From the NCBI GenBank assembly GCA_947650005.1, contig CANSTU010000024.1, forward strand, positions 1 to 41,004: DNA of 41,004 nucleotides. Direction: 5' to 3'. Positions 1-32,985 of this stretch are shown here, piece by piece. Below the pieces are notes generated by a model that searched no databases, was not told the DNA's origin, and saw only the letters and a list, made by a program, of their open reading frames with translations. The translations under genes and the position numbers were made by a program. Position 1 is the first letter of the stretch. Each line of letters begins with the position of its first letter. This DNA comes from an uncultured Lachnospiraceae bacterium. GTDB taxonomy: Bacteria; Bacillota; Clostridia; Lachnospirales; Lachnospiraceae.

Positions 1-130
1 TGAAAGCAGGATGCTTTCAACCTCCCTGATTGAAACGCCCGCAAAAGCGGGCAGACGGGAGCAAGGTTGAATTAAGAACCTTTCATCCACCCCGAGAATG
101 CCCGCTAAGGCGGACAGATAGGAGCTGACG
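1..130 (+). repeat. Hairpin repeat elements forming the fabF leader
   Basis: Two units of the window's hairpin repeat family lie back to back. The first has a hairpin TGAAAGcaggatGCTTTCA (1-19), a CTCCC box (22-26), a GC hairpin GCCCGCaaaaGCGGGC (37-52) and GGGAG (57-61). The second has an imperfect GC hairpin (100-114) followed by AGGAG at 120-124, six bases before the fabF ATG. The last unit therefore supplies the fabF ribosome binding site. The left edge may be cut by the window. Confidence 0.7.
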
Positions 131-1366
131 ATGAACAGACGGGTTGTTGTGACCGGGTTGGGGGCCATCACCCCCATCGGAAATGATGTGGATAGCTTTT
201 GGAAGAGTTTGAAAGAGAAAAAGGTTGGTATCGGGCCGATCACGCATTTTGATGCTGCGGGATATAAGGCGAAGCTGGCCGGAGAGGTAAAAGATTTTCA
301 GGCGAAGGAATATATGGATGGCAGGGCGGCCAGAAGGATGGAATTGTTCTCTCAGTATGCGGTGGCTGCGGCCAGGCAGGCCCTGGAGGACGCCGGAATA
401 GAGATGAGTATGGAGGATCCCTATCGGGTGGGGGTTTCAGTGGGTTCAGGTATCGGTTCCATGCAGGCTTTTGAACAGAATCACAGAGCGCTTCTGGAAA
501 AGGGGCCGGGCCGGGTAAGCCCTCTTATGGTGCCAATGATGATCAGCAATATGGCGGCAGGAAATGTGGGGATTGCTTTCGGACTGAAAGGAAAAAATAT
601 CAATGTGGTGACGGCCTGTGCCACGGGTACGAACAGCATTGGTGAGGCATTCCGCGCGATTCAATATGGAGAGGCGGACGTGATGGTGGCCGGGGGAACG
701 GAAAGCAGCATTTGCCCCATGGCGGTGGCAGGCTTTTCGGCTCTGCAGGCGCTTTCCACTTCGGATGACCCGTTGCGGGCAAGCCGTCCCTTTGACAGAG
801 ACCGGACCGGATTTGTGATGGGAGAGGGAGCAGGGGTCGTGGTGCTGGAATCTCTGGAACATGCGCTCTCACGGGGAGCGAAGATCTATGCACAGGTGGC
901 CGGATACGGAGCCACCTGTGACGCCTGGCATATCACTTCTCCAGTGGAGGACGGAAGCGGAGCTGCGCAGGCCATGCGTTTTGCCATAGAAGACGCAGGA
1001 CTTTCTCCGGAGGATATCGATTATGTGAATGCCCACGGGACTGGGACACATCAAAACGATGTATTTGAGACCAGGGCGATCAGGCTGGCATTGGGCGCCC
1101 ATGCTGACCGGGTGAAGGTGAGTTCCACCAAATCCATGACGGGCCACCTTCTGGGAGCTGCGGGCGGGGTGGAATTTATCGCCTGCGTCAAATCCATACA
1201 GGACGGCTTTGTCCATGCCACGGCAGGCCTATCCGAAGAAGGAGAGGGATGCGACCTAGATTATACCAAAGGGGACGGCGTATCCATGGATGTGGGCTGC
1301 GTCATCAGCAATTCCCTAGGATTTGGCGGGCATAACGCTAGTATTTTACTGAAGAAATATGTATGA
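131..1366 (+). CDS. fabF: Beta-ketoacyl-ACP synthase II
   Basis: Condenses acyl-ACP with malonyl-ACP in the elongation cycle of type II fatty acid synthesis (cytoplasm). The 411-residue length is normal for FabF. The thiolase-fold Cys-His-His triad is visible: the cysteine in VVTACATGTNSIGEAF, the first histidine in NAHGTGTHQND and the second in STKSMTGHLLGAAGG. The N-terminus MNRRVVVTGLGAITPIG is the usual FabF start, and AGGAG lies six bases upstream inside a repeat hairpin element. It is followed by accB, fabZ, accC and accDA on the same strand, so it is part of a fab-acc operon whose earlier genes probably lie before the window. FabB or another KAS is possible in principle, but length and neighbours favour FabF. 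Confidence 0.96.
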   Translation: MNRRVVVTGLGAITPIGNDVDSFWKSLKEKKVGIGPITHFDAAGYKAKLAGEVKDFQAKEYMDGRAARRMELFSQYAVAAARQALEDAGIEMSMEDPYRVGVSVGSGIGSMQAFEQNHRALLEKGPGRVSPLMVPMMISNMAAGNVGIAFGLKGKNINVVTACATGTNSIGEAFRAIQYGEADVMVAGGTESSICPMAVAGFSALQALSTSDDPLRASRPFDRDRTGFVMGEGAGVVVLESLEHALSRGAKIYAQVAGYGATCDAWHITSPVEDGSGAAQAMRFAIEDAGLSPEDIDYVNAHGTGTHQNDVFETRAIRLALGAHADRVKVSSTKSMTGHLLGAAGGVEFIACVKSIQDGFVHATAGLSEEGEGCDLDYTKGDGVSMDVGCVISNSLGFGGHNASILLKKYV

Positions 1367-1426
1367 ATTTGCTGTTTATATGATTTGGGGCGGGAGCAGG
1401 GATGAACGTGGGATTTTGAATGGATT

Positions 1427-1456
1427 GCCCGCCAAGGCGGGCAGACGGGAGTTAGC
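1427..1456 (+). promoter_or_regulatory. Hairpin plus ribosome binding site before accB
   Basis: A perfect hairpin GCCCGCCaaGGCGGGC (1427-1442) is followed by GGGAG at 1447-1451, five bases before the accB ATG. Same architecture as the units before fabF and several unrelated genes in this window. Confidence 0.65.
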
Positions 1457-1888
1457 ATGGACATACAGGAAATCACGAAACTGATCGAGGCGGTGAGTGA
1501 ACATGGCCTGACCAGCTTTGAATTGGAAGAGGGAAACATGCGGATCTGCCTGAAACGGGAAGGCGGACAGTTCCAGGCCGTGATGCCGGCACTGGCAGAG
1601 GCGGCTTCCGGGCATGCACAGGAATCGGAGGAAGGAACGGAGCCGGACGCAGGCCAGGTCGTGTCCTCCCCGCTGGTGGGCATCTTCTACGCAGCGGCCT
1701 CCCCGGAGGAAGAAGCCTATGTAAAGGTGGGAGACCGGGTGAAAAAAGGGCAGGTTTTGGGCCTCATCGAAGCGATGAAATTGATGAATGAGGTGGAATG
1801 CGAGTACGACGGCGTGGTGGAAGCCATTCTGGTGGGCAATGAGGATATGGTGGAATACGGGCAGCCTTTGTTCCGAATCCAGCCATGA
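1457..1888 (+). CDS. accB: Biotin carboxyl carrier protein of acetyl-CoA carboxylase
   Basis: Carries the biotin that is carboxylated by AccC and then used by the carboxyltransferase to make malonyl-CoA. It has 143 residues. The C-terminal biotinyl domain contains the attachment motif EAMKLMNEVE (biotinylated Lys in AMKLM), preceded by the SPLVGIFYAAASPEEEAYVKVGD segment type typical of BCCP. The N-terminal part (MDIQEITKLIEAVSEHGL) matches the usual AccB start, and the middle is a Glu/Ala-rich linker. The start is set by GGGAG five bases upstream, supplied by a hairpin element. It lies 90 bases after fabF in the fab-acc operon. Confidence 0.95.
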   Translation: MDIQEITKLIEAVSEHGLTSFELEEGNMRICLKREGGQFQAVMPALAEAASGHAQESEEGTEPDAGQVVSSPLVGIFYAAASPEEEAYVKVGDRVKKGQVLGLIEAMKLMNEVECEYDGVVEAILVGNEDMVEYGQPLFRIQP

Positions 1889-2029
1889 GCGCAGGAGGGG
1901 AACTGAAAGCGAATTGCCCTATCGGGCCTTCCGAGCTTTCTCAAAGCGATGTGCGGGTGAAAAGGAGTGGTTGGAAAATCCGTATTTGCTGATGCGGAAG
2001 GCTTGCATAGATAGGAACAGGAGACAATT

Positions 2030-2452
2030 ATGTTGGGAATTAAGGAAATCCAGGAAATTATTCCACACCGTCACCCTTTTTTGCTGATCGACGCAATTGA
2101 TGAGCTGGAGCCGGGGATTCGGGCAGTGGGATATAAGGCGGTGACCTACAACGAGCCGTTTTTTGCGGGACATTTTCCCGGGGAACCGGTGATGCCGGGG
2201 GTGTTGATCGTGGAAGCCCTGGCCCAGACCGGGGCGGTGGCGATCCTTTCCCGGGAAGAAAACCGGGGGAAGGTAGCCTATTTTGGAGCTGTGAACCATG
2301 CCCGGTTTCGGCAAAAGGTGATTCCCGGGAACCGTCTGCGGTTGGAGTGCCAGATCATCCGGCAAAAAGGGCCGATGGGTATAGGGCAGGCGACGGCTAC
2401 GGTGGACGGGAAAACGGCGGTGAGTGCGGAACTGACTTTTATGATCGGGTAA
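2030..2452 (+). CDS. fabZ: 3-hydroxyacyl-ACP dehydratase
   Basis: Dehydrates 3-hydroxyacyl-ACP to trans-2-enoyl-ACP in fatty acid elongation. The 140-residue hotdog-fold protein shows the FabZ signature: [11 protein letters not shown] near the N-terminus, and the catalytic His and Glu in [19 protein letters not shown]. Upstream ACAGGAGAC gives a clear ribosome binding site. The 141-base gap after accB contains no recognisable gene. FabA is unlikely given the length and the [10 protein letters not shown] motif. accC follows after 13 bases. Confidence 0.96.
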
Positions 2453-2465
2453 AGGAAAATTTGCC

Positions 2466-3833: not shown

Positions 3834-3939
3834 AAGATAACGGTATGGACGGCGGCGGAACATTTCCGGCGCCGTCTGGAACATTCATGTAGAAGGTATG
3901 TTGTACTTCCATGTGTAGTAAGGCGGCAGAGAGGTTCCT

Positions 3940-5775: not shown

Positions 5776-5851
5776 CGAGTGGAAGGAGGAGACGCCATAC
5801 AGGCAGCACTAGCCGATGAAGGATACGCGTGGACATTGTGCAGAGCCAGCT

Positions 5852-5960
5852 GACAGAGGATGTGTGACATCGGGCAGGCGCCTGCCGACAGAGGATGTGT
5901 GTGACATCAGGCAGGCGCCAACCAACAGAAGGTGTATGGCGTCAGGCAGCATAGGCTGCC
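5852..5960. repeat. Three degenerate tandem repeats of about 36 bp
   Basis: Copies begin at 5852, 5887 and 5924, each starting like GACAGAGGATGTGTG and containing ACATCRGGCAGGCGCC or a decayed version. They lie in the 266-base gap between the convergent accDA and racemase genes, where I see no gene and no clear terminator. Confidence 0.6.
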
Positions 5961-6041
5961 GAAGAGTGCAAATGGCGGCTGCGGCCGTCCGCAAATAGGT
6001 AGAGCAGAAAGCCGCATCCGCCCGTGCCCGGCTGATGTATA

Positions 6042-8378
6042 TCAGCGCAGGACGCGTTCCAGCCGGCTGCCCAGGCGGCTTAGGATTTCATTGGTGATGG
6101 TTCCATCCCCTTCCGCCAAGTCATAGGCGGTGATTTCAGCTGTTCCGTCTCTTCCGATGAGAACCGCAATATCCCCTGCTGTTACGCCCGGTATCCCGGT
6201 AATATCCACGAACAGCTGATCCATGCAGATGAGTCCCACGATGGGAGCCTTCCGCTGGCGGATCAGAACTTTGCCGCGGCCGCAGGAAAGGGAACGGGGG
6301 ATTCCATCTGCGTAGCCGATGGAGAGGACAGCGATCATTCCATCCTGTTTTGCCACATATTTAAGGCCATATCCCACCCCTTCGCCTGCACGGATTTCCT
6401 TGACCTGTGCGACCCGGGCTTTCAGGGAGAGCACCGGACGGAGGCGTATGGGACAGTTTTCCAGATCAGCCCGGCTGCTCAATACCCCATAGAGGGCGAT
6501 GCCGGCCCGCGCAAGATCGTTGGCCCATTTGGGATAACGGATCAGGCCGTGGCTGGCCAGAAGATGCAGCCTTCCGCAGTCGCAGCCCCGTTTTTCTAAG
6601 GAGAGGACGGCTTGACGGAAGGCTTTTTCCTGGCTGGCACATAAGGCGATATCCACAGGGGAATCGGAGTCGGCGGCACATAGATGGGTATAGGTTCCCG
6701 TAATCCTGAGATTATCATAATGAAAGATCCGGTATAATTCTTCCAGTTTTTCCGGACGTTCTCCCAGGCGGTGCATGCCTGTATCGATTTTCAGGTGGAC
6801 GTTCAGCTTTCTATTACAGGCGTTCAACTGCCTGGCATAGGACTCGTCTAGGACAGTCTGTGTGAGGCGGTATTTGGCGAGGGCAGGAAATTGATCCGGG
6901 TGGGTGTATCCCAGGATCAGGATTTCACCCCATATGCCGTTCCTGCGCAAACTGATCCCTTCCGAAAGGGTAGCTACACAGAAATCGTTTATTCCCAGGC
7001 GGTTAAGCAGTCTGGCAAGGAGGACGGCTCCGTGCCCGTAGGCATTGGCCTTTAGGACACACATCAGGGCACATCCCGGAGGAAGCAGGCTCTTCAAGGC
7101 GGCTAGATTATGGCGCAGATTTTCCGTATCCAGTTCTATCCAGGCCCGGGACTGCTGCGGGAAGATGCTTTTCCCAAAAACGGCAGGTGAGGGCAGCGGC
7201 TGTTCGGAATCATAGGTGCAGGGCAGATAACGGCGCTTTCCCAAGGCAGCGGGAAGGAGGCAGATAACAACGGCCGCAGCCCAGGAGATCAGGCAGACGG
7301 AAAAAAAGTGGATCAGGCTGTTTTCAATCAAAAGATGTTCTAGGTGAATCGCTTTACCTATGCCGCGCACCAGGAGGATCGCCAGGGGATGGATCAAATA
7401 AATCCAAGTGGACAGGTTCCTTAGATGTTTGGATGGGGGCCGGCGGACGGCCAGAAGCAGGGAAAACAGGAAAAACATACAAAAGGGCAGGGTCAGATAC
7501 ATGCTGTCATGTCTTTGCGCGTTCAGGCGATGGAGCGCAAGGCCCTCGGCCGTCATTCCTGCCAGGCAGCATAGGAAACCGGCCCAAAGCAGCGCATGTC
7601 TGCCCATCAGGCCCGATTTTACCTTTGGAACAATTCCTTCGAAGGGCGCATCCGGTACAGGCCGGGTGGAATTAGACTGTAAATGGGGGCTGTGAGAATG
7701 ATTGCTACGCTTTTCCCTCTCAACAGGGCGTTCCGAAAGCAGTCTGATTCCCATCCCTTCCGCGAGAAAAAGGGGAGCATAGAATAATCCGCCCCGTGTC
7801 TGATGGAATATATCTAGCATAAGATCATAGATCCCTTTTACCGCGCTGCCCTCCGGAAGGAAACCATAGTAGCTGTCGCCCGGCAGGCCCAAGAGATAGA
7901 GCAGGACGGTGACGGCAAAAAGGGCGCCGAAGGGTAGAAGGCGGCTTCCCAGAAACAGAAGGAGGACTCCGAGGATACAGGCGGGAAGATACCATAAATG
8001 ATAGAACGTGCCTTCAAACAGGAACATGCGCAGCAGAGGAAGAAGCGTCCTGCCCTGCAGATGGCCTGCATAAATGTTGACGGGAAAGTAGAGGAGGGTG
8101 GCAGCCAGATACAGGCAAAGCAGCTTTTTCATGTAAATCCATAGGGCTTTGGACGGCCCGGAACGTTTTAACAGGCAGGAAGGCAGAAGAAAATAGCCGG
8201 TAGCCATGAAAAAGAAGGGCACAGCGATCCGCGCGAAAATTCTGGTAAGGATGAAATCCGCCTCGCCGCCAAAGAAGCCAAGGGGGGAAGTATGGATGGA
8301 AACGACCAGGAGGGCGGCGGGGATCCGAAAGAGATCTGGCCCTCCGATTAGCGGATGATTCGTTTGGGTTGTCTGCAT
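6042..8378 (-). CDS. VanT-like membrane serine/alanine racemase (acyltransferase-racemase fusion)
   Basis: Predicted to racemise L-Ser (and probably L-Ala) to the D-form for peptidoglycan precursors. The 778 residues have two parts. Residues about 1-400 form a polytopic acyltransferase-3 type membrane domain (start NHPLIGGPDLFRIPAALLVV; many hydrophobic segments). Residues about 410-778 form a PLP-dependent alanine racemase fold: PLP lysine K443 in CVLKANAYGHG, and VGYGLKY and IGYADGIPR for the catalytic-tyrosine region. Near the C-terminus the sequence is TITNEIL (N763), where ordinary alanine racemases have TINYE. The corresponding Asn is a known determinant of serine racemisation in VanT enzymes. 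The ligase gene lies four bases upstream on the same strand, so they are one transcript. A plain housekeeping Alr is less likely because of the fusion and the Asn. Confidence 0.9.
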   Translation of the reverse strand: MQTTQTNHPLIGGPDLFRIPAALLVVSIHTSPLGFFGGEADFILTRIFARIAVPFFFMATGYFLLPSCLLKRSGPSKALWIYMKKLLCLYLAATLLYFPVNIYAGHLQGRTLLPLLRMFLFEGTFYHLWYLPACILGVLLLFLGSRLLPFGALFAVTVLLYLLGLPGDSYYGFLPEGSAVKGIYDLMLDIFHQTRGGLFYAPLFLAEGMGIRLLSERPVEREKRSNHSHSPHLQSNSTRPVPDAPFEGIVPKVKSGLMGRHALLWAGFLCCLAGMTAEGLALHRLNAQRHDSMYLTLPFCMFFLFSLLLAVRRPPSKHLRNLSTWIYLIHPLAILLVRGIGKAIHLEHLLIENSLIHFFSVCLISWAAAVVICLLPAALGKRRYLPCTYDSEQPLPSPAVFGKSIFPQQSRAWIELDTENLRHNLAALKSLLPPGCALMCVLKANAYGHGAVLLARLLNRLGINDFCVATLSEGISLRRNGIWGEILILGYTHPDQFPALAKYRLTQTVLDESYARQLNACNRKLNVHLKIDTGMHRLGERPEKLEELYRIFHYDNLRITGTYTHLCAADSDSPVDIALCASQEKAFRQAVLSLEKRGCDCGRLHLLASHGLIRYPKWANDLARAGIALYGVLSSRADLENCPIRLRPVLSLKARVAQVKEIRAGEGVGYGLKYVAKQDGMIAVLSIGYADGIPRSLSCGRGKVLIRQRKAPIVGLICMDQLFVDITGIPGVTAGDIAVLIGRDGTAEITAYDLAEGDGTITNEILSRLGSRLERVLR

Positions 8379-8381
8379 AAT

Positions 8382-9677
8382 TTAATTTCCCGCTTTCCTG
8401 TAAACGGCTGCATTTTCCAGGGATAATTCTATCGCTGTGGCGATGATCTGTGAAAGGGATTGGCCGGCTGCCGCCAGCATGCCCGGAAAACGGCTGTGGG
8501 CTGTAAATCCGGGAATGGTGTTGACTTCGTTAAAATAGATCTCGCCGGAGTCGGCCAGAAACATGTCTACCCGGGCAAATCCCTGACAGGAGAGCGCCCG
8601 GTAAATACGTATTCCGATCTGACGGATCCGTTCGGCCGTCCGTTCGTCGATTCTGGCAGGGACATGGATGGCGGAGGTTTTCAGGGTATATTTTTCCGTA
8701 AAATCAAAGAAACCTTCCGAAAGCTCGATTTCATCCACCGCTCCTATCGTCAACTTGTCGTTCCCCAGAATGGCGCATCCTACCTCAAATCCGGAAATGG
8801 ATTCCTCCAGTAGAATGGTATCGTCATAAGAAAAGGCCAGTTTTACGGCGTCGGAAAGCGCCTGCGGACAGGAAACCTTCGTAATTCCAAAGGAGGAGCC
8901 GGATTTGACAGGCTTGACGAACACAGGCCAGCCGATCGCTTCGGCCAGATCAAGGATCTGTTCCTGCGTCGTATGACGGCCGATGAGCTGGGAGCGGGGA
9001 ACCGGTATCCCAGCCGCCTGTACGAGCCTGTGCGCCCTGTCCTTATCCATGCAGAGGGCGGAAGAAAGGACGCCGCAGCCCACCACCGGGATTCCGGCCA
9101 GCTCCAGCACGCCCTGTACGGTGCCGTCCTCCCCGTTTATGCCGTGAAGGATGGGAAAGGCAGCGTCAATAGGAAGCTTTTCGGCCCGTCCTTTTCCGAG
9201 CAGAAGAAGAGCGTGGTCAGAGCGGTTTAGGGACAGAGACACCGGAATAAGGTTTTCGTCCTCTGACCAGGTATCGTCCTCGATTTTGCTTTCCTTTCCG
9301 CGATAAAGGAACCAGTCTCCCTGACGGGAGATGCCCACTAGAACCGGCTCATAGCGTTCTCGGTCCAGACAGCACGCCACTGCATGGGCCGAGTGGAGCG
9401 AGACACCATATTCCGGGGAACAGCCGCCGAAAAGCAGAGCGATCCTTTTCGTGCCGGAGGGGATGCCAGGCGGAATAGGGCTGTTAACGCACGGACTGTC
9501 CGAAGGAAGGGGATCCATGGTGACAAAAGAACAGCAGGTGAAAGGGGATCCCGTCTGTTTTCCATCCGGGAAGACGGAGGAAGAATTAAAATGTTCAATC
9601 TCCTGGCTTGCGTGTGTGCCTTGCACACGGATGGGAATAGGATTGAGATTTGAAATATGCTTGGGTTTCCTTTCCAT
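8382..9677 (-). CDS. D-Ala-D-Ser type ligase, VanG-like, with repeat-derived N-terminal extension
   Basis: ATP-grasp ligase that joins D-Ala to a second D-residue, probably D-Ser. The catalytic part starts near residue 77 with IALLFGGCSPEYGVSLHSA, matching the VanG/VanC/VanE group. The omega-loop region FFDFTEKYTL (E328-K329-Y330) is the EKY motif of D-Ala-D-Ser ligases. The metal site is FNEVNTIPGFT. The protein is about 80 residues longer than VanG at the N-terminus. M1 has AGGAG six bases upstream behind a hairpin, so I keep it; the alternative M54 (9518) has no ribosome binding site. Residues about 10-32 are encoded by an antisense copy of the window's repeat element. Its partner racemase follows directly. 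No VanXY, VanRS or VanW gene is present in this window. Confidence 0.88.
   Translation of the reverse strand: MERKPKHISNLNPIPIRVQGTHASQEIEHFNSSSVFPDGKQTGSPFTCCSFVTMDPLPSDSPCVNSPIPPGIPSGTKRIALLFGGCSPEYGVSLHSAHAVACCLDRERYEPVLVGISRQGDWFLYRGKESKIEDDTWSEDENLIPVSLSLNRSDHALLLLGKGRAEKLPIDAAFPILHGINGEDGTVQGVLELAGIPVVGCGVLSSALCMDKDRAHRLVQAAGIPVPRSQLIGRHTTQEQILDLAEAIGWPVFVKPVKSGSSFGITKVSCPQALSDAVKLAFSYDDTILLEESISGFEVGCAILGNDKLTIGAVDEIELSEGFFDFTEKYTLKTSAIHVPARIDERTAERIRQIGIRIYRALSCQGFARVDMFLADSGEIYFNEVNTIPGFTAHSRFPGMLAAAGQSLSQIIATAIELSLENAAVYRKAGN
9583..9650 (+). repeat. Hairpin repeat element inside the ligase reading frame
   Basis: On the + strand the segment reads as a full repeat unit: AT-rich ATTAAAATGTTCAATC, TCCTGGCTTG, a GC hairpin GTGTGCcttGCACAC (9614-9628), GGATGGGAATAG and GATTGAGAT. 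It aligns with the copies at 11150-11200 and 40660-40735. It runs antisense to the ligase gene and encodes about residues 10-32 of the extension. Confidence 0.65.
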
Positions 9678-10924: not shown

Positions 10925-11190
10925 GGAAAGACGCTTTCAACCTCTTTGATTTGAGCGCGTGATTTGCATGCGGATGGGAGCAAAGACAGAAAATTAAAAT
11001 TTTCTATCTCCCTGATTAGTATGCCCGCTAAAGCGGGCGGATGGGAGCAAAGATAGAAAATTAAAATTTTCTATCTCCCTGATTAGTATGCCCGCTAAAG
11101 CGGGCGGATGGGAGCAAAGATAGAAAATTAAAATTTTCTATCTCCCTGATTAGTATGCCCGCTAAAGCGGGCGGATAGGAGCAAGATTGA
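10925..11190 (+). repeat. Tandem 67-bp hairpin repeat array
   Basis: A divergent first unit (10925-10983: GAAAGacGCTTTC hairpin, CCTCTTTGATTTG, hairpin arms GCGCGTG and CATGCG, GGATGGGAGC) is followed by three near-identical units with 67-bp period (conserved CCTGATTAGT at 11011, 11078 and 11145). Each has an AT hairpin AGAAAATTaaAATTTTCT, a CTCCC box, a GC hairpin GCCCGCtaaaGCGGGC and GGATGGGAGCAA (GGATAGGAGCAA in the last). CTCCC can pair with GGGAG around the GC hairpin. Confidence 0.9.
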
Positions 11191-11287
11191 AAATTGACAT
11201 TTTCAATCTCGGACTTTGTGACGCTGCGCGTCCCAAAGTTTCCGCTGATTAAAATGCCGCTTGCGCGGCGGAATGAGAGGAAATATG
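11178..11287 (+). repeat. 110-bp element, copy A (inverted copy at 40559-40668)
   Basis: Runs from GGAGCAAGATTG to the beta-lactamase ATG. It holds an AT hairpin GATTGAAAATtgacATTTTCAATC-like fold, a long hairpin starting GGACTTTG and ending CAAAGTTTCC, and a GC hairpin GCCGCttgcGCGGC (11256-11269), then GAGAGG four bases before the ATG. The reverse complement of 40559-40668 is the same length and differs at only a few positions. Confidence 0.85.
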
Positions 11288-12364
11288 AAAAAATTGAATT
11301 GGATAAATCCTATCAAGGGGGCTCTTTTGGTGGGACTTCTTTTGAGTTTGACGGGCTGTGCCGGGCAGAATGCGGGTCCCACGGACGGGCGGCATGCGGG
11401 TGGGCCTCCGGCCGATTCCCAGGTCATGGAAGATCATTCACAGCAGGTACAGCCGTCAATAGAAGGAAGCGGACGGCGGGGAGGATCCAGGAGGAAAGAG
11501 CAGCAACGGCCGGCAGAGACGCCGCCATCGGCTGAATTGATGAATGGTGGAACCCTGTCCCGGGCGGAAGCTGCAGAGGAAACAAATGCAGAGCCCCTTT
11601 TCTTGCAGCAGACGGACTGGGCAAAACTTTTCCATGGGATAAATGGTTCAGCCGTCCTCTACGATCCGGCTGAAAACTGTTATAGAGTCTATAATCAGGA
11701 AGCGGCCATCATCCAGCGTTCTCCCTGTTCCACCTTTAAAATCATTTCTTCCCTGCTCGCCCTGGAGAATGGCATCGTGGATCCGGGTCAGTCCGTCCGG
11801 ACCTGGAGCGGTGAGATATTCTGGAACGGGGATTGGAATAGGGATATCGGCTTCGATGAGGCATTCCGTACCTCCTGCGTCTGGTATTTTCGGCAGGTGA
11901 TCGACGAAATCGGAAAGGACAGAATACAGGATGGGCTGGATCATCTTGCATACGGCAATCGGGACATTTCCGATTGGGATGGACGGCTGAATAGCAATAA
12001 CCAGAATCCTGCCCTGACCGGATTCTGGATCGAATCGTCGTTAAAAATTTCACCAAAAGAACAGACAGAGGTCATGGAACGCATTTTCGGCGTCCATTCC
12101 GATTATTCCAGGGAAACGATAGACCGGTTAATGCAGGTTATGTTGCTGCCAGAATCGGAAGAAACGGGGATTATGATTTACGGAAAAACCGGAATGGGCA
12201 AGGCAGCGGGCGTTGTCATCGATGCTTGGTACACTGGGTTTGCGGATCTGGCCGATGAGAGGATTTATTTCTGTGTGCACCTTGATGAGACAGCGAACGA
12301 GGAAGTATCCAGCTCGAAGGCGAGGGAAATCGCTGTGGAGATACTAGAGGGGTATTTTCGATAG
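11285..12364 (+). CDS. Lipoprotein class D beta-lactamase
   Basis: Secreted, membrane-anchored serine hydrolase predicted to open beta-lactams. The 359-residue protein starts with a lipoprotein signal ending LSLTGC (lipidated C25), then a low-complexity linker to about residue 110. The class D motifs follow in order: STFK (S149 acylated serine, K152), SCV (S197), YGN (223-225) and KTG (K301-G303). Trp-rich segments around ISDWDGR fit the OXA/clostridial CDD group. The start is chosen for GAGAGG four bases upstream; an upstream in-frame ATG at 11261 falls inside the hairpin. A BlaR1-type sensor domain is the alternative, but there is no attached regulatory domain. The linker shows no family match. 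Regulation may involve the hairpin array upstream. Confidence 0.88.
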   Translation: MKKLNWINPIKGALLVGLLLSLTGCAGQNAGPTDGRHAGGPPADSQVMEDHSQQVQPSIEGSGRRGGSRRKEQQRPAETPPSAELMNGGTLSRAEAAEETNAEPLFLQQTDWAKLFHGINGSAVLYDPAENCYRVYNQEAAIIQRSPCSTFKIISSLLALENGIVDPGQSVRTWSGEIFWNGDWNRDIGFDEAFRTSCVWYFRQVIDEIGKDRIQDGLDHLAYGNRDISDWDGRLNSNNQNPALTGFWIESSLKISPKEQTEVMERIFGVHSDYSRETIDRLMQVMLLPESEETGIMIYGKTGMGKAAGVVIDAWYTGFADLADERIYFCVHLDETANEEVSSSKAREIAVEILEGYFR

Positions 12365-20562: not shown

Positions 20563-20633
20563 AGGAGCATAGTTCAAAGGTAGAACAGTGGTCTCCAAAA
20601 CCATCGATGTGGGTTCGATTCCTACTGCTCCTG
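20563..20633 (+). tRNA. tRNA-Trp (anticodon CCA)
   Basis: Full cloverleaf: acceptor arms AGGAGCA (20563-20569) and TGCTCCT (20626-20632), D-arm GTTC/GAAC, anticodon stem GTGGT/ACCAT with loop CTCCAAA (anticodon CCA), T-arm with loop TTCGATT, discriminator G. No CCA tail is encoded. The 71-nt form matches bacterial tRNA-Trp. Confidence 0.95.
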
Positions 20634-20639
20634 TAACGG

Positions 20640-20763: not shown

Positions 20764-22794
20764 ATGAGGAAGGACGTGATCAGCAAGTATCCGAAGCTAT
20801 TGCACGGTGGGGATTATAATCCAGATCAGTGGCTGGATTACCCGGATGTCCTGAAGGAGGATATCCAACTGATGAAACAGGCGCACGTGAACTGCGTATC
20901 CTTGGGGATTTTTTCTTGGACGAAACTGGAGCCGTCAGAAGGGGAATTCAGGCTGGACTGGCTCGGGGAGATCATAGACAGGCTCTATGAAAACGGGGTT
21001 TACACCATTCTGGCTACGCCTACCGGCGCCGTCCCCCATTGGATGAGCGCGAAATACGAAGAGGTGAGGCAGGTGCTGCCCAACGGGGTTCGGAATCTTC
21101 CTGGAGAAAGGCACAATTTCTGCGCCACTTCCCCGGTGATGCGCCAAAAGATGAAAACAATCAACCAGAAGCTTTCCTCCAGATTCGGCAAGCATCCCGG
21201 CGTGATCCTATGGCATCTGTCCAATGAATACGGGGGGAATACGGGAGAAGGCGCCTGCTACTGCCCGTTGTGCCAGGAAGCGTTCCGGGAATGGCTGAAG
21301 GAGAAGTACAAGACGCTGGATGCTCTGAACCATGCGTGGTGGACTTCCTTCTGGAGCCATACCTATACGGATTGGTCTCAGATCCACAGTCCGATGGAAA
21401 ACGGAGAAAACAGCACCCATGGCCTTACGCTGGATTGGAAGCGGTTTTCGAGCCATCAGATGCAGGATTTCTGTATGGAGGAAATCAAAGCCTTACGGGA
21501 ATACAGCGATATTCCTGTAACCATTAATATGATGCTGGATTTCAAGCCCTATGATTACTTCCGTTTCGCTCCCCAGCTGGACATCATTTCCTGGGATTCC
21601 TATCCGGAGTGGCACAGCCAGGCGGACGAGACGCAGGTGGCCATGCATACGGCGGCTTGGCATACGCTGATGCGCAGCCTGAAAAAAGCCCCGTTCCTGC
21701 TGATGGAAAGCACGCCATCAATTGTGAACTGGAAGCCGTTAAATACCCAGAAACGGCCCGGGCTGCATGAACTTTCCTCCATGCAGGCCATTGCCTGCGG
21801 TTCCAACAGCGTGCAGTATTTCCAGTGGAGGAAGGGAAGGGGAAGCTCGGAAAAATTCCATGGCGCCGTTGTGGATCATAAGAACGGCGGAAATACCAGG
21901 GTCTTCCGTGAGGTTGCTGCACTGGGAGAGCGGATGGAACGCCTTTCCGACAGCGTATATTCCACCTGCAACGAGCCGAAGGCGGCGATCCTTTTTGACT
22001 GGGAAAACTGGTGGGCTGTGGAGGATATCCAGGGGCCGAGACGGGATATGGCCTATCTGGATACGGTGCTGGCCCATTTCAAAGCCTTCTGGGAGCTAGG
22101 AGTGGAAGTTGACTTCATCAGCGAAGATGATACCATGGAAGGCTATACGCTGGTGACGGCGCCTATGGCCTATCTGTATAAGGACGGCTATGTGCAGCGG
22201 GTGAAAGACTACGTGAAGCGGGGAGGCGCCTATGTATCCACCTGTTTTGGCGGCGTGGTGGATGAAACGGATCTATGTTTTATCGGAAAACATCCTTTGG
22301 AAGAAGTCTTGGGAATCAGGCCGGAAGAAATGGATGCCGCGTCCTGCTATCAGCCCAACAGCTTAACCTTTGACGGTAAAAGATGGGCCGTAGGCTGTCT
22401 GCGCGAGATCTCCAATCCGGTGGAAGAGGTGGAAGTGCTTGCGTCCTATGAAACGGATTATTATGAAGGGGTTCCAGCAGTGACCCGCAGGGAATATGGG
22501 GAAGGAAAGGCCTATTATCTTGCCTGCGAGACGGAAGACGGTTTCCTTTCCGCTTTCTATGGAAAACTGATCCAGGAGTTGGGGATTGCAGGAGAATTTA
22601 CCGGGAAGCTGCCTTATGGCGTGGCTGTTTCCAAAAGAGAAGGGAATGGGGAGTTTTGGTTTATCCAGAACTTCAACAGGGAAGAAACACAGTTGGAGCT
22701 TCCATTTGCGGCTGCGGTTGTGCCGGAGGGAACGCCGCTGGAAGGCAGCGTGACATTGAAGCCCTATGAATGTCTGGTCCTGAAACGGGCATAG
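20764..22794 (+). CDS. GH42 family beta-galactosidase
   Basis: Hydrolyses terminal beta-galactosides; no signal peptide, so cytoplasmic. It has 676 residues, normal for GH42. The N-terminus HGGDYNPDQWLDYPDVLKED starts the TIM barrel. The acid/base Glu is E155 in HLSNEYGG and the nucleophile is E315 in LLMESTPS. A cysteine cluster CYCPLCQEAF follows the first catalytic Glu, as in zinc-binding GH42 enzymes. The middle trimerisation domain (FDWENWWAVEDIQGPRRDMAY) and a small C-terminal beta domain (YECLVLKRA) are present. An upstream in-frame ATG (20656) overlaps the tRNA terminator and is rejected. No transporter or regulator of galactoside use adjoins it. Confidence 0.93.
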   Translation: MRKDVISKYPKLLHGGDYNPDQWLDYPDVLKEDIQLMKQAHVNCVSLGIFSWTKLEPSEGEFRLDWLGEIIDRLYENGVYTILATPTGAVPHWMSAKYEEVRQVLPNGVRNLPGERHNFCATSPVMRQKMKTINQKLSSRFGKHPGVILWHLSNEYGGNTGEGACYCPLCQEAFREWLKEKYKTLDALNHAWWTSFWSHTYTDWSQIHSPMENGENSTHGLTLDWKRFSSHQMQDFCMEEIKALREYSDIPVTINMMLDFKPYDYFRFAPQLDIISWDSYPEWHSQADETQVAMHTAAWHTLMRSLKKAPFLLMESTPSIVNWKPLNTQKRPGLHELSSMQAIACGSNSVQYFQWRKGRGSSEKFHGAVVDHKNGGNTRVFREVAALGERMERLSDSVYSTCNEPKAAILFDWENWWAVEDIQGPRRDMAYLDTVLAHFKAFWELGVEVDFISEDDTMEGYTLVTAPMAYLYKDGYVQRVKDYVKRGGAYVSTCFGGVVDETDLCFIGKHPLEEVLGIRPEEMDAASCYQPNSLTFDGKRWAVGCLREISNPVEEVEVLASYETDYYEGVPAVTRREYGEGKAYYLACETEDGFLSAFYGKLIQELGIAGEFTGKLPYGVAVSKREGNGEFWFIQNFNREETQLELPFAAAVVPEGTPLEGSVTLKPYECLVLKRA

Positions 22795-22803
22795 AGCGCC
22801 GGT

Positions 22804-23316
22804 TCAGCCAGGAGGGGAGGTTTTTTGGGAGAGAGGGCAAAAATGCGCCCTCTCTCTTAAAAAGCAGAGAAAACGCGTGACACAGACGCCGGCCAGACTC
22901 CCTGCAGAGTCGATGCATACATCCCGCAGGGAAGGGAAACGGCCCGGCACGAAGGACTGGTGATACTCGTCCAAACAGGCAAAGGCAGTACAGAAGATTG
23001 TGGTGGCGAGTATCAGACGCCATCCTCTCAGGCGGTACCCATATAATGGGAGGGCGACCGTGACTGCCAGGAGAAAATATTCTGCCATATGGGCGGTTTT
23101 CCGAACTGCATGCTCCAGCATGAGGGCATATTCAAAAATCTGCAGGTCGCTCCATCCTTTGGCAAAGACGGATTCGCAGGCTTCCACCAGTTTTACGGTG
23201 ACTTGATTGCTGAGCTGTCCGGAGGCCTGGGCATCCTGGGCAGAAAAGCCGAAAATCAGACACATCATGAAAACAGCAGGAAGGAAAGAAAGCGGCTTTA
23301 AACAGGTTCGTATCAT
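22804..23316 (-). CDS. VanZ-like membrane protein
   Basis: A 170-residue VanZ-family protein. The family includes the teicoplanin-resistance protein VanZ, but most members have no known role. The motifs RKTAHMAEYFLLA, DEYHQSFVPGR and SLRDVCIDSAG are clear, with four hydrophobic segments. I start at ATG 23316 because GGGAG lies five bases upstream, inside a hairpin repeat unit. The in-frame ATG at 23328 and one further up fall in the repeats. The last ten codons overlap a 10-bp hairpin at 22829-22856 (GAGAGAGGGC arms). Its occurrence in the same window as the VanG/VanT-like pair is probably coincidence: it is 13 kb away and on its own. Confidence 0.85.
   Translation of the reverse strand: MIRTCLKPLSFLPAVFMMCLIFGFSAQDAQASGQLSNQVTVKLVEACESVFAKGWSDLQIFEYALMLEHAVRKTAHMAEYFLLAVTVALPLYGYRLRGWRLILATTIFCTAFACLDEYHQSFVPGRFPSLRDVCIDSAGSLAGVCVTRFLCFLRERAHFCPLSQKTSPPG
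22829..22856. terminator. Hairpin between convergent GH42 and VanZ genes
   Basis: Perfect 10-bp stem GAGAGAGGGC / GCCCTCTCTC with an 8-base loop. The T-run on either side is poor (CTTAAAA on +, none on -), so termination is plausible but not certain. It overlaps the end of the VanZ-like frame. Confidence 0.45.
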
Positions 23317-23445: not shown

Positions 23446-23854
23446 AAAGCGCTGAAACATCTTTCAGATTCCTCACTGTGGGTTTGTAATCCTTCTTTCA
23501 ATCCCCTGTTTCTTGTGGGACTGGCAGGAACCTACCCATCATATCATAGCTTTGAACCATTTACAAATATTCCGTTCGTCTGAGCATACCAACCGCATGA
23601 ATGGCCCGGCGGCCGCCTATGCAGCTGCCACAGCCTCATTCATGCGGTTGATATGGGTTCAGGAAAGCGCAAGAATGATGAAAAAATATTTTTAAGAGTT
23701 TGCTATCATGTTAGTGAAAGGATGGTTGAAAGAAAGGAACTTTTGACCTCATTGATTCGGGTGCCCAGTAAAGCGGGCAGATGGGAACACGCAACTTTGT
23801 GCCTGTGGCAGAGCGTACTACATACGCAATGAAGTTTGCAGGTTATGGAAAGGC
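23446..23854. other. Intergenic region with a long-stem hairpin and a decayed repeat
   Basis: No gene is supported. A 13-bp stem (CAACCGCATGAAT near 23590 with ATTCATGCGGTTG near 23640) encloses a GC-rich loop and lacks a T-run. A decayed copy of the hairpin repeat occurs near 23740-23790 (CTCATTGATTCGG, GTGCCCAGTAAAGCGGGC, AGATGGGAAC). The promoter of the AraC gene is probably in between (TTGCTATCATG near 23700), but boxes are weak. Confidence 0.5.
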
Positions 23855-24793
23855 ATGGTTATTGATATGGGGCAAAGTAAGGTTGAAAATATCAGCGCCG
23901 TGATCGCATATGTGGAAACGCATCTGGATGAAAGGCTGGACTTGGAAAAGGTTGCAAAAGGGGTACATTATTCCAAATATCATCTGCATCGTATGTTCAA
24001 GGATACGGTCGGAGTGACGCTGCACGATTATATTCGGCGAAGGCAGCTGACCGAAGCGGCAAGGCTGCTGGTATTTTCTCCTAAATCGATCCTTGAGATT
24101 GCGCAGGATGCGGGGTATGAGAGCCAACAGGCTTTTACAGGAATTTTCAAAGACATGTATAAACACCCACCTTTGGAATACAGGGGGAGGGGAAAATATT
24201 ATCCTTTGCAGCTTGCGTTTACCCTGAACAAGAACCCGACCGCTCCCAACGAGATGGCAACCCAGATTACCTATGCCAAATTGGAGGACCTTCCGGCGTG
24301 GATGGATTTTGCTTCGCTCGTCATCGACGGTTTTCCCTGTTTTGATGCACAAGAGCACCTGAAACGTCTCAATTATTCTATCAGGCAAAGGCAGATATTG
24401 GTGATACGGGACAAAAGTATTGTGGTTGGCGGCGCGGCCTTTTCCCGTGCGGCCGGCCGGATTGAGTTTTTAGGGGTTCATCCGCAGTACCGCCAATATG
24501 GGATAGGAGAAGCATTTCTGGATTTCATTCGGGATCGCATATTTACGGATCGGGAAATTAGTATCACAACGTTTCGGGAGGGTGATAGGGCTGATACAGG
24601 GCAGCGTGCGGCATATCGACAGCTCGGATTTGTGGAATCAGAGCTTCTGATGGAATTTGGATATCCTGTCCAGCGGATGATTTTGCCGAAAAAGCGTGTA
24701 CTTCATACACATTTTAATTTACAGGTTAGAACAGAGCGGGAAGGCTCCTTTGATGCTGCCCATCGGCGGCGGAATGGCGGTTATGATGAATGA
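23855..24793 (+). CDS. AraC-type regulator fused to a GNAT acetyltransferase domain
   Basis: A 312-residue two-domain protein. Residues about 10-115 are an AraC/XylS double helix-turn-helix (LDLEKVAKGVHYSKYHLHRMFKDTVG; ILEIAQDAGYESQQAFTGIFK). Residues about 190-285 are a GNAT fold with the acetyl-CoA loop VHPQYRQYGIGEAFLDFI and a following beta strand pattern, plus YRQLGFVES. It overlaps the start of the MATE gene, so the two are coupled. The simplest reading is a regulator of the pump whose GNAT domain may sense or acetylate a small molecule. The effector is unknown. The frame starts at ATG 23855; ATG 23867 is an alternative. Confidence 0.85.
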   Translation: MVIDMGQSKVENISAVIAYVETHLDERLDLEKVAKGVHYSKYHLHRMFKDTVGVTLHDYIRRRQLTEAARLLVFSPKSILEIAQDAGYESQQAFTGIFKDMYKHPPLEYRGRGKYYPLQLAFTLNKNPTAPNEMATQITYAKLEDLPAWMDFASLVIDGFPCFDAQEHLKRLNYSIRQRQILVIRDKSIVVGGAAFSRAAGRIEFLGVHPQYRQYGIGEAFLDFIRDRIFTDREISITTFREGDRADTGQRAAYRQLGFVESELLMEFGYPVQRMILPKKRVLHTHFNLQVRTEREGSFDAAHRRRNGGYDE

Positions 24794-26223: not shown

Positions 26224-26307
26224 GATAAACGCAGGAATGTCCCGTCCGGCGCCGAAACAGAAGTGTTTCAGGAATCAGGCGCCGGCCGGGACATTCCTGC
26301 GTTTATC
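26224..26307. repeat. Inverted repeat with 30-bp arms
   Basis: Arms 26224-26253 and 26278-26307 match at 29 of 30 positions (outer bases GATAAACGCAGGAATG); the loop holds a small GAAAC/GTTTC hairpin. It lies in the 297-base gap between the MATE and TetR genes, with no T-run after it, so it is not a typical intrinsic terminator. Confidence 0.85.
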
Positions 26308-26411
26308 TGCCTTCACAGTGTATTTGACTTCCAGCATCATTTATAATAAGATAGATAGGGCGCGGCGGAACATAGATTCGTTGCCCGAAACTGGAATGAA
26401 GGAGCCTTGGC

Positions 26412-26996: not shown

Positions 26997-27047
26997 AGCG
27001 AAGACGCAGGCTTCATGTGTTTTGCGCGAAAATTGGCGGAATGCCGA

Positions 27048-27075
27048 TTGAAAAAACTGTTGAAACCTGTATAAT
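27048..27075 (+). promoter_or_regulatory. Promoter of purL
   Basis: TTGAAA (27048-27053), 16-base spacer, TATAAT (27070-27075). It lies 89 bases before the purL start. I see no PurR-box or purine riboswitch in the short leader. Confidence 0.7.
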
Positions 27076-27163
27076 TAAGAATGAGCATACCACCCGGAAG
27101 ATCTGGGAAGAAAATGCGTGGCAGCACTGACGATACCGGTACAAGGATGGAGGAAAAGCGTTG

Positions 27164-30976: not shown

Positions 30977-31033
30977 ACGGGAGCGCGTCGTCTGAGGCGG
31001 CTGGGAACAAACGAATAGAGGGAAACTGCGAAG

Positions 31034-31062
31034 AAGCATCCGAGAGGGTGCTTTTTCCTTTT
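31034..31062 (+). terminator. Intrinsic terminator after purL
   Basis: Stem AAGCATCC (31034-31041), loop GAGA, GGGTGCTT (31046-31053), then TTTCCTTTT. It lies 58 bases after the purL stop and just before the giant palindrome. Confidence 0.85.
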
Positions 31063-31071
31063 GGGGCGGAC

Positions 31072-31383
31072 GCCGTGGAAGCCACGATGGGGGCGCATAC
31101 GGCGGAGGCCGGGCTTTCCCGGGCAGGGGCGGGGATGTTTCCTGTCAGGAAGCCGCTGGCGCTTTGGGCTGTCTCTAAAGCCGCCGGGCTCGGCTTCGGA
31201 CCTTGCGAGAGCGGCTAAACTCCTCGCTTCGCTCGTCAGACAACGCCGCCTTCGCAAGGAAGCCGTGCCCGGCAGCTTAAGAGGCAGCCCAAAGCGCCAG
31301 ATGCTTCCTGGCAGGAAATATCCCCACCCCTGCCCGGGAAAGCCCGGCCCCGCCGTATGCGCCCCCATCGTGGCTTCCACGGC
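31072..31383. repeat. Giant imperfect palindrome, 312 bp
   Basis: The left arm (31072-31215, starting GCCGTGGAAGCCACGATGG) is the reverse complement of the right arm (31245-31383, ending CCATCGTGGCTTCCACGGC) at about 90 percent of positions by eye, around a loop of about 29 bases. The arms are very GC-rich. Open frames across it on both strands mirror each other and have no ribosome binding site, so I call no gene. Flanking target-site duplication is not evident. Confidence 0.9.
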
Positions 31384-31556
31384 TGGCTGTCATCCCTGTA
31401 ACATATATGTTTTATTGCGGGGGATGGGGAGGATAGGAGCTTTGTTTCTTGGGAAGGGCGAAGCGTGTAGGGATAGCCCATTCTGCCTCGGATAGCCGGC
31501 CGTTGAATCCCTTCCTGCGCTCTGGGGTCGCTTTGCTGCCGTCCTGTTGAAATAAT
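31384..31556. other. Intergenic segment before the carA promoter
   Basis: No coding sequence is supported. It runs from the palindrome to the promoter and includes AT-rich ACATATATG and mixed sequence. I see no riboswitch or attenuator for pyrimidine control here. Confidence 0.4.
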
Positions 31557-31585
31557 TTGAACCTGTAGGAATTTTGTGGTACAAT
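31557..31585 (+). promoter_or_regulatory. Promoter of carAB
   Basis: TTGAAC (31557-31562), 17-base spacer, TACAAT (31580-31585). The transcript would have a leader of about 65 bases before carA. Confidence 0.75.
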
Positions 31586-31659
31586 GAAGCGATTATGGAA
31601 AAAGAGGTTGAAAGCATAGCCCGCTCCGGCATTTTCAATGAGAAAGGGATGAAAACCAT

Positions 31660-32862
31660 ATGAAGGCATACTTGATTCTGGAGGACGGCACCGTATTTGA
31701 AGGGACGCATATAGGAGCCGATAGGAATGTGATCAGCGAAATCGTCTTTAATACATCCATGGCCGGTTATCTGGAGGTGCTCACGGATCCCTCCTATGCG
31801 GGCCAGGCCGTGTGCATGACCTATCCGCTGATCGGTAATTATGGCGTATGTCGGGAGGATATGGAGTCGGAAAGGTTGTGGCCGGATGGATTTATCGTGA
31901 GGGAGCTGTCCAGGCGCCCCAGCAATTTCCGCTGTGACTGTACGCTCCAGGAGGTGCTGGAGGAGTACGGCATACCCGGGATCGCCGGCATTGATACCAG
32001 GGCTTTGACCAGGCTTTTACGAGAAAAGGGGACCATGAACGGTATGATCACTGCCGACGGCGGCTACTGCCTGGAGGAAATCCTTCCTAAGCTGGCCGCA
32101 TATACCCCTAAAGGGGTGGTGGAAAAGGTGACCTGCCGGGAAAAATATCGGATACGGGGCAGCAGGGCCCTTTCGGAAAACGGTCCGCTATCGGGCAGCA
32201 GCGTTTTTTGTGAGGAGGACTGGCAGGCAAGGCGGCGGGGAGAAGATGTGCCGCCGGAGAGACGCCCTTCCCTGGTAAAAGAGTTGAACGGGGCGGGAAA
32301 GCGCGTTGCGCTCCTGGATCTGGGTGCAAAGGGGAATATTGCCCGCTGTCTGGCCATGCGGGGGTGCGATGTGACCGTCTATCCGGCGCAGACTTTGGCT
32401 GAGGAGATCCTTGCGGACGGCCCGGACGGCGTCATGCTATCTAACGGGCCAGGGGATCCCAAGGAATGCGTGGACGTCATTCGAAAGATCCGGGCGCTTT
32501 ACGAGACGGATATCCCGATATTTGCCATCTGTCTGGGGCATCAGCTCATGGCCCTGGCCACCGGAGCGGATACTTTTAAGATGAAATACGGCCATCGGGG
32601 CGGTAACCACCCCGTGAAGGATCTGGCCACCGGGCGGGTCTATATTTCTTCCCAAAATCACGGCTATGTGGTGGACACGGACAGGCTGGATCCCAAGATC
32701 GCCGTGCCGTCCTTTGTAAATGTGAACGACGGCACCAATGAAGGGCTTACGTATGTGGGAAAGAATATTTTTACGGTACAATTCCATCCGGAAGCGTGCC
32801 CGGGACCGCAGGATTCTGGGTATCTGTTTGATCGGTTTATCGAGATGATGGAGCGGGGATGA
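31660..32862 (+). CDS. carA: Carbamoyl-phosphate synthase small subunit
   Basis: Glutamine amidotransferase subunit that supplies ammonia to CarB for carbamoyl phosphate, feeding arginine and pyrimidine synthesis. The 400 residues show the N-terminal CarA domain (ILEDGTVFEGTHIG; FNTSMAGYLEVLTDPSYAGQ) and a class I glutaminase with the nucleophilic Cys in FAICLGHQLMALA and the His-Glu pair in VQFHPEACPGP. An insertion around residues 165-205 (rich in Ser, Arg and Glu) is a little longer than in many homologues. GAAAGGGATG stands before the ATG. carB follows after 123 bases. Confidence 0.96.
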   Translation: MKAYLILEDGTVFEGTHIGADRNVISEIVFNTSMAGYLEVLTDPSYAGQAVCMTYPLIGNYGVCREDMESERLWPDGFIVRELSRRPSNFRCDCTLQEVLEEYGIPGIAGIDTRALTRLLREKGTMNGMITADGGYCLEEILPKLAAYTPKGVVEKVTCREKYRIRGSRALSENGPLSGSSVFCEEDWQARRRGEDVPPERRPSLVKELNGAGKRVALLDLGAKGNIARCLAMRGCDVTVYPAQTLAEEILADGPDGVMLSNGPGDPKECVDVIRKIRALYETDIPIFAICLGHQLMALATGADTFKMKYGHRGGNHPVKDLATGRVYISSQNHGYVVDTDRLDPKIAVPSFVNVNDGTNEGLTYVGKNIFTVQFHPEACPGPQDSGYLFDRFIEMMERG

Positions 32863-32953
32863 TAGCCGTGTTTCCAAACAGGATGATGCGTCCGTTTGCA
32901 TACAGCCCTGCGGCGGTACTGAAATAAATGATTCTCCCCTTTTTATATGGTTT

Positions 32954-32985
32954 GCCGCCCTGCGGCGGCGGAATGTGAGGAAGAA
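32954..32985 (+). promoter_or_regulatory. Hairpin plus ribosome binding site before carB
   Basis: A perfect hairpin GCCGCCctgcGGCGGC (32954-32969) is followed by GGAATGTGAGGAAGAA and the ATG. GTGAGG ends five bases before the start. The same GGAATG-GAGG context occurs before the beta-lactamase and, inverted, at 40559-40590. Confidence 0.65.

Follow-up and report, generated by a model that had tools for sequence, protein, structure and literature searches.

Hairpin modules in the window

The stretch analysed here (the window) is the whole of contig 24, 41,004 nucleotides (nt) long, of the 138-contig, 3.59-Mb draft genome of an uncultured Lachnospiraceae bacterium (contig CANSTU010000024.1; genome G000), and our subject is a short GC-rich hairpin that stands directly ahead of the Shine–Dalgarno sequence (SD) of genes on it. 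A preliminary description had placed such hairpins before seven genes, and all seven arrangements of hairpin, SD and start codon were indeed present, in place or displaced by a few bases. Pfam assigned these genes to ketoacyl synthase (fabF), biotin carrier protein (accB), D-Ala-D-Ala ligase, a transpeptidase-domain protein, GH42, the VanZ family and carbamoyl-phosphate synthase large chain (carB). The gene at 11285-12364 had been labelled a beta-lactamase; it does match the penicillin-binding transpeptidase domain PF00905, and this Pfam match alone is insufficient for a beta-lactamase. Among the matches listed, the nearest named fabF relatives are Lachnospiraceae with 82% identity, and very near genomes possibly lie outside this search.

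The copies were scored with two covariance models, R1 for type A and R2 for type B, and several window copies are rows of their own model, as marked below. A type A copy was called terminal when it ends 3-10 nt before a start codon that opens a frame of 50 codons or more.

23..61, + strand: type A unit, array-internal, upstream of fabF; R1 52.2 bits (model row)
86..124, + strand: type A terminal unit with SD GGAG, fabF ATG at 131; R1 34.6 bits (model row) and sequence; PF00109
1413..1451, + strand: type A terminal unit, accB ATG at 1457; R1 46.9 bits (model row); PF00364
9684..9721, - strand: hybrid terminal module, stem GCCGCC/GGCGGC, tail AGATAGGAG, D-Ala-D-Ala ligase ATG at 9677; sequence, R2 partial 15.5 and R1 11.1 bits; PF07478/PF01820
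10943..11181, + strand: four tandem type A units at 10943, 11009, 11076 and 11143, period 66-67 bp; R1 32.9-57.3 bits (last three are model rows)
11256..11280, + strand: type B terminal module behind the A array, transpeptidase-domain protein ATG at 11285; R2 35.6 bits (model row); PF00905
20731..20757, + strand: type B terminal module, GH42 ATG at 20764; R2 32 bits (model row), present with a changed loop in the sister species G002; PF02449
23322..23360, - strand: type A terminal module, VanZ-family gene ATG at 23316; R1 53.1 bits (model row); PF04892
23362..23440, - strand: two more type A units upstream of the VanZ module, period 40-42 bp, tails GACGGGAT and GATGAGAT replacing an intact SD; R1 31.2 and 24.8 bits and sequence
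23749..23787, + strand: degenerate type A unit without a start codon directly 3′; R1 25 bits and sequence
24755..24783, + strand: probable type B module, GCTGCC-CAT-CGGCGGC-GGAATGGCGGTT, ahead of ATG 24783; R2 17.7 bits and sequence
32954..32980, + strand: type B terminal module, carB ATG at 32986; R2 40.8 bits (model row), identical hairpin in G002; PF02786
36932..36984, + strand: family E unit 1, long hairpin plus TGCCGC hairpin; hairpins and sequence
37069..37121, + strand: family E unit 2, then TGAAAGGG and argS ATG at 37135; sequence; PF00750
40566..40703, - strand: type A unit (40703-40665), then type B module (40590-40566), ATG at 40561 opening only a 6-codon frame; R1 41.6 and R2 33.7 bits, and translation

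The seven copies had been taken as a single family, which they are not: those at fabF, accB and the VanZ gene are type A, those at the transpeptidase-domain gene, GH42 and carB are type B, and the module at the D-Ala-D-Ala ligase combines a B-like stem with an A-like tail. The fabF stem reads GCCCGC/GCGGAC and pairs at only 5 of 6 positions, so that it fails the strict perfect-stem test used below. The phenomenon is also bigger than first described, and the window holds further A, B and E copies.

The leader at 40440-40703 (- strand) is much like that at 11143-11285, and apparently has no gene behind its 6-codon frame; the cassette may be an orphan, or may be what is left at a gene since lost. 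An Rfam scan of the window (4227 families, E ≤ 1) matched no family to any module, its matches being a tRNA (20563-20633) and a below-gathering RRE (31117-31339), both away from the modules. The latter falls in a GC-rich inverted repeat at 31109-31347, where the HIV RRE family scores 27.3 bits against a gathering threshold of 104, and is probably a palindrome artefact. In 6042-9677 (- strand) the D-Ala-D-Ala ligase is followed by an acyltransferase–alanine racemase fusion (PF01757 plus PF01168/PF00842), with a domain order reminiscent of VanT-type racemases.

Anatomy of the units

The two main families, A and B, and the minor ones share one plan, in which a GC hairpin is followed by a purine-rich tail with the SD, 4-6 nt and the start codon. 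A full unit comprises an AT-richer hairpin (HP2), an AT-rich linker of 10-13 nt (TGATTTGTAT in type A), the GC hairpin (HP1) and the SD-bearing purine-rich tail, and many copies are reduced to linker, HP1 and tail. Type A reads CTGATTTGTAT, a GCNNGC stem with a loop such as TAAA, AGATGGGAG, 5-6 nt and the start, its 3′ side following the form stem-AGAYNGGAG; type B consists of a GCCGC/GCGGC stem with a loop of 3-7, RGAAN3GAGG, 4 nt and the start. Minor families are built to the same plan as A and B. In family D, which shares the plan with a longer HP1, an HP2 such as TTTGAAAC..GTTTCAAA is followed by TATCGCA..TGCGATA and TGCAGRGG ahead of starts (copies at L096 713-, L100 13819-, L101 6794-, L178 1493+ and L190 10492-).

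HP2 was found in 25 of the 29 type A copies that lie behind another copy, as against 29 of 124 other copies (shuffles, 0 and 2). The array period is mostly 65-90 nt, with 40-42 nt at the VanZ gene, and one unit in the relative G009 carries three hairpins by eye. The constancy of flanks and tails in the alignments used below (A1-A3) arises partly by construction, their rows having been picked by flanks or tails; linker and tail letters also recur in leaders picked only for their hairpin. In array-internal units such as those at window 11143-11200, L212 and L218, a TTG or ATG stands roughly 5-10 nt past the SD and opens a short frame running through HP2, and the arrays might encode mini-ORFs (short open reading frames).

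Position and orientation

Position was examined in a 441-kb sample made up of the window and twenty 20-kb stretches from elsewhere in the draft, with genes called by our own simple codon-score method. A strict hairpin (perfect stem, 5 bp or longer, 4 or more GC pairs) lies at -47..-9 of 63 of the 223 genes with an SD start, against 4-14 in seven other 38-nt intervals and an average of 5 over ten letter shuffles, and for 39 genes the stem reaches 6 bp or more. Enrichment at start codons, on which the preliminary description had made its proposal depend, was thus found, and its near-constant spacing was borne out by a peak at 14-15 nt between hairpin end and start codon. Genome-wide, the pattern GCAGANNGGAG occurs 436 times, as against 31 for the reversed control.

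The covariance-model search of the genome and its relatives that had been suggested was also run, and copies of both types mostly lie in register with start codons. The 155 type A copies in G000 and G002 divide into 98 terminal, 30 array-internal, 19 others facing a same-strand gene and 8 elsewhere. In 50 of 52 type B sites the start codon lies 2-9 nt past GAGG, in 38 of them at exactly 4 nt. A further 44 type B sites in relatives, taken from seven genus members and G015 around model hits and from other stretches of G009, G003, G011, G005 and G036, comprise 30 terminal and 14 array-internal ones, the G003 and G011 stretches holding no type B site by that pattern. At six loci in other genera, a subset of the eight from a family-wide R2 search, all six type B copies are terminal, and in the low-copy genomes G001, G003, G005, G011, G012 and G036 the best copy likewise lies 5-6 nt from a start codon.

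Self-comparison of upstream 100-mers revealed a repeated leader shared by 79 of 221 genes in G000, 77 of them forming one cluster, and by 116 of 433 in G002, where one cluster takes in 112. The matches are overwhelmingly in the sense orientation (579 against 4 inverted in G000; 802 against 41 in G002) and terminate mostly 0-8 nt before the start. Among these genes 47 and 79, respectively, pass the strict hairpin test, and a further 16 and 32 genes have a hairpin with no repeat match. A preference for GGAG or GAGG alone would leave the SDs of G000 with about 14% of the intergenic copies (216 against 1331 sites) and those of G002 with 12.5% (452 against 3163), both low estimates since SDs of uncalled genes count as elsewhere. 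The mover would therefore have to read SDs, unless strong selection purges other insertions.

Pairing and covariation of the stem

The fairest test of pairing is given by 64 copies from the fetched stretches, which were picked by flanks alone. These pair at a mean of 5.44 of 6 positions, against 4.87 ± 0.06 for re-dealt arms (the highest of 1000 being 5.11); 44 are fully paired, 10 pair at 5 of 6 and 10 at 4 or fewer. The set A1 of 60 type A copies (58 distinct) was drawn from 65 four-base-loop hits, five judged non-family having been omitted, with rows preselected for at least 5 of 6 pairs plus the tail; two-sided change occurs in 4 of its 6 pairs, and in 41 cells against 14.5 when shuffled within g1. 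The 28-copy set A2 (27 distinct) comes from ten genomes outside the genus; its rows were picked on their flanks, though at loci found with R1, which itself scores pairing. In this set 98.8% of the cells are paired, and two-sided cells number 29 against 10.5 shuffled. The cell counts and covariation scores of A1 and A2 are exceptional, being reached by 0 of 500 shuffles. For type B, GC stands at each arm end in 49 of 52 sites, and alignment A3 consists of the 46 of them whose loops measure 4-6. Pairing is thus kept through compensatory changes while stems differ, as had been proposed from the seven window copies.

Turnover between orthologues

We then compared 86 orthologue pairs between G000 and 1.30 Mb of G002. 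The hairpin is present in both members of 20 pairs, in one only of 25 (of which pairs 10, 21 and 24 are, by eye, near-misses of the strict stem test) and in neither of 41 (odds ratio 5.5, Fisher p=0.0005). Among 79 pairs of an earlier set, identity over the upstream 60 nt has a median of 87% where neither has a hairpin and 55-69% where either has, and in several pairs the hairpin is, by eye, retained but from another family.

To find filled and empty sites, the shorter of the two leaders in a pair was looked for in the other species, in the sequence that precedes the unit there. Five pairs (36, 38, 39, 79 and 173) were found in which a unit sits between an older SD and the start codon. In pair 38 an A unit lies behind AAAGGAG, in pair 39 two units lie behind GCAGGAG, and in pair 36 a unit of another family lies behind a type B SD. 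In pair 79 the unit stands between two copies of AGGAGGC, the 7-bp native SD being duplicated, where G002 has one copy. In pair 173 an older hairpin, broken in G000, is followed by a new A unit; it is intact in G002, where it still adjoins the ATG. The five score 16-31.5 against a null 99th percentile of 11 and maximum of 17; pairs 36 (16) and 79 (17) lie near that maximum and therefore rest additionally on matching flanks. Of the 11 pairs listed, the others are copy-number changes (80, 153 and 154) or were judged unclear or chance (13, 83 and 218). The preliminary description would have been undermined by orthologues lacking the hairpin with no sign of insertion or loss; instead, presence is correlated and filled and empty sites are seen.

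The number of units varies as well, with 4 against 2, 4 (partly degenerate) against 1, and 4 against 1 plus a possible remnant in three orthologues of G000 and G002, and, in other species, 4 against 1 at 96% protein identity and 2 against 1 at 98-99%. Furthermore, an SD-like tetramer lies at most 18 nt upstream of 18 of 29 single full units, compared with 51 of 158 in a background interval.

Distribution across genomes

Type A is patchy and occurs at high copy in different genera, and type B is present in every genus member tested. In a survey of 61 genomes with R1 (strict filters, up to 109 candidates scored per genome), at least 114 matches were obtained in G000 and at least 109 in G002, 1-14 in five more of the 13 genus members and none in the other six; 2 of 24 other genera of the family gave hits, and 24 genomes of other families gave none. 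Across 397 family genomes (up to 16 scored each), 22 carry type A, in 19 of 334 genera, six of them with at least 16 matches. R2 detected type B in 13 of 13 genus members, with 9 to 143 hits; in the 397 family genomes (up to 19 scored each) 69 have at least one hit at E ≤ 0.001, where single hits may be chance, and ten have at least nine.

At 80 named Lachnospiraceae loci neighbouring fabF, R1 gave 0 hits and R2 gave 8 at E ≤ 0.05, of which five, all at start codons, are in L033 (Clostridium sp. MCC353). By eye, the fabF leaders and the stretches 3′ of fabF in the 31 named loci listed are module-free, except for a B-like module at fabF in L033. The strict test on the 1034 genes of the 80 loci found 53 hairpins, with no enrichment over other intervals (28-55), and a hairpin before the start is therefore not a Lachnospiraceae-wide habit. 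Spread by phage was examined with one exact pattern, which has 0 occurrences in viral contigs.

Proposed mechanism and rival explanations

In our best reading, each hairpin forms the 3′ part of a small leader cassette, and the cassettes, dispersed over the genome, make up a superfamily. These repeat cassettes mostly face start codons and keep in register with them, their HP1 is paired, and in the filled sites they lie downstream of an older SD and ahead of the start codon. We regard it as reasonably probable that they represent a mobile or copied SD-carrying hairpin cassette, which inserts after SDs and takes over initiation. As the states of the five orthologue pairs suggest, a unit would arrive just behind the SD of a gene, nearly always in sense; its 3′ SD would presumably become the working one, with the older SD staying upstream. 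With an SD at the end of every unit, the tandem and mixed A/B arrays could grow by renewed insertion of this kind or by slippage between units, and selection would maintain HP1 pairing while the letters change. The preliminary description is thereby partly supported: its module copied along with its own SD agrees with the repeated leaders, tandem arrays, filled and empty sites and covariance-model searches, and its single family does not stand. More tentatively, and short of calling it probable, we propose that the SD itself is the target of a class of mobile elements, which would insert in sense between SD and start codon, bring a new 3′ SD, stack upon themselves and serve as the working leader of about a quarter to a third of genes.

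As a payoff to the host, HP1 directly 5′ of the SD might shield the downstream mRNA from 5′ decay after cleavage in the linker, thereby buffering expression; G000 encodes an RNase Y gene. That HP1 stabilises mRNA in this way is a guess by analogy with 5′ stem-loops in some other leaders. In R. cellulolyticum, according to the available part of the report, a stem-loop upstream of a reporter raised the half-life from 5.3 to 45.3 min (PMC10311766), and for the aprE leader a 5′ stem-loop and ribosome binding are involved, as cited in the accessible text of PMC7509114.

Several observations weigh against the insertion of a mobile cassette with a maintained, protective hairpin. A target-site duplication (AGGAGGC) accompanies one of the five filled/empty pairs, and none is clear in the other four. 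No mobilising gene was found, the Y1 transposase PF01797 being absent in 7 of 10 element-bearing genomes, which are drafts; mobilisation by a RAYT was rejected on this distribution (absent in G000, G002, G009, G123, G335, G349 and G384; present in G162, G299 and G380). Not every copy lies at a start, as the 34 type A copies in other genera comprise 23 terminal, 4 array-internal and 7 other ones (one "other", L194 +, and one "terminal", L114, seem spurious). Most type B copies have, by eye, little shared 5′ flank, so that type B may be a maintained motif and not a copied unit. On the side of selection, the numbers of pairs and of pair types with two-sided change in the 60- and 28-copy sets are unexceptional (37, 17, 56 and 284 of 500 shuffles reach them), and template switching in palindromes can also yield compensatory changes. 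HP1 pairing is no better in terminal copies (43 of 53) than in others (29 of 38; p=0.61); hairpin decay in non-terminal copies was not seen overall, though pair 173 is one case. No significant enrichment was obtained for operon-internal (co-directional) placement (Fisher 0.21 and 0.23). By prediction the linker is no more open than its surroundings (unpaired probability 0.46 against 0.45-0.47), and the open-linker model was dropped. Finally, the available portion of the C. cellulolyticum work places the main protection at 3′ ends (PMC4423207).

A non-mobile regulatory RNA motif, arising and selected at many genes and read through its linker, hairpin and purine-rich tail by the 30S subunit or by some trans-acting protein, would account for the linker and tail letters repeated in leaders chosen only for their hairpin, for the scant flank of type B outside the motif with its near-fixed 4-nt spacing, and for the correlated presence of the hairpin across orthologues. 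We consider it unlikely, since whole units of 65-85 nt with a second hairpin are repeated and in tandem, filled and empty sites exist, type A is patchy and high-copy in different genera, and the target genes are unrelated. Slightly less credit still is given to a purely selfish palindromic repeat of the REP, MITE or BOX kind, without a role, whose copies survive only where the SD is restored. Dispersal, tandem arrangement, variable copy number and patchy high copy all suit such a repeat, yet few copies occupy harmless places (of the 155 type A copies divided up above, only the 8 classed as elsewhere), and stem pairing survives double changes. Pneumococcal repeats, by the part of the study at hand, are over-represented between convergent genes, unlike type A (PMC3049150). 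The position of HP1 directly 5′ of the SD, at a near-fixed distance, would also fit a folding insulator that blocks upstream sequence from pairing with the SD. This is very improbable and was rejected, as shuffling the hairpin letters in 158 modules left the predicted accessibility of the SD region unaffected (0.511 against 0.512, p=0.94).

On the reading as an inserting, SD-carrying cassette, a large share of genes, among them the housekeeping genes fabF, accB, carB and argS, appears to obtain its ribosome-binding site from a repeat family. More than a quarter of the sampled genes are hairpin-led, and from the sister-species comparison this family appears to be rewriting the translation start of many genes. 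If confirmed, this would mean that 5′ leaders are swapped by a spreading element, that natural replicate sets are at hand for testing the effect of an SD-adjacent hairpin, and that upstream regulatory comparison in such gut bacteria faces fast non-homologous replacement.

Comparison with known systems

No description of the element came up in searches of an open-access library, which leaves out most subscription journals. Dispersed palindromic repeats are usually seen as neutral or gene-end structures. The pneumococcal repeat paper, in its available part, treats them in this manner (PMC3049150). The BOX, RUP and SPRITE repeats described there are likewise modular small interspersed repeats with variable module number, a likeness of modular logic; they are over-represented between convergent genes, whereas the present units nearly all face a start codon and supply an SD.

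The REP/BIME repeats of the GTAG and CGTC type are, from the accessible text, likewise small palindromes with variable complementary stems, high copy number and clusters (PMC3733652). The present units differ in their head-to-tail arrays and start-codon register and in that no Y1 transposase was found in G000; neither the type A flanks TGATTTGTAT and AGATGGGAG nor the type B tail RGAAN3GAGG contains the unpaired GTAG/CGTC end tag. The main text of that paper holds no word beginning with Clostridi or Firmicutes. Nor do the units resemble intrinsic terminators, as in 63 hairpin-selected leaders the hairpin is followed, by eye, by purine-rich SD sequence with no T run.

The SRPS stem-loops of Clostridium cellulolyticum are likewise intergenic stem-loops in Clostridia, which change mRNA half-life within operons; they are operon structures with mainly 3′-end protection and most cleavage downstream of the loop, and are not described, in the portions available, as repeats or as tied to SDs (PMC4423207, PMC10311766). 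Stable leaders of the aprE type, as the accessible part of PMC7509114 presents them, belong to a single gene, whereas the present modules form a repeat family.

Finally, the TAACTGA direct repeats at starts in marine Beggiatoaceae are likewise patchy across distant lineages, with a proposed translational role and no known mover, according to the part of the report available (PMC4679880). Those are heptamers with no predicted structure and little SD character, whereas the present units measure 35-85 nt, contain one to three hairpins, carry an SD and sit behind an existing one.

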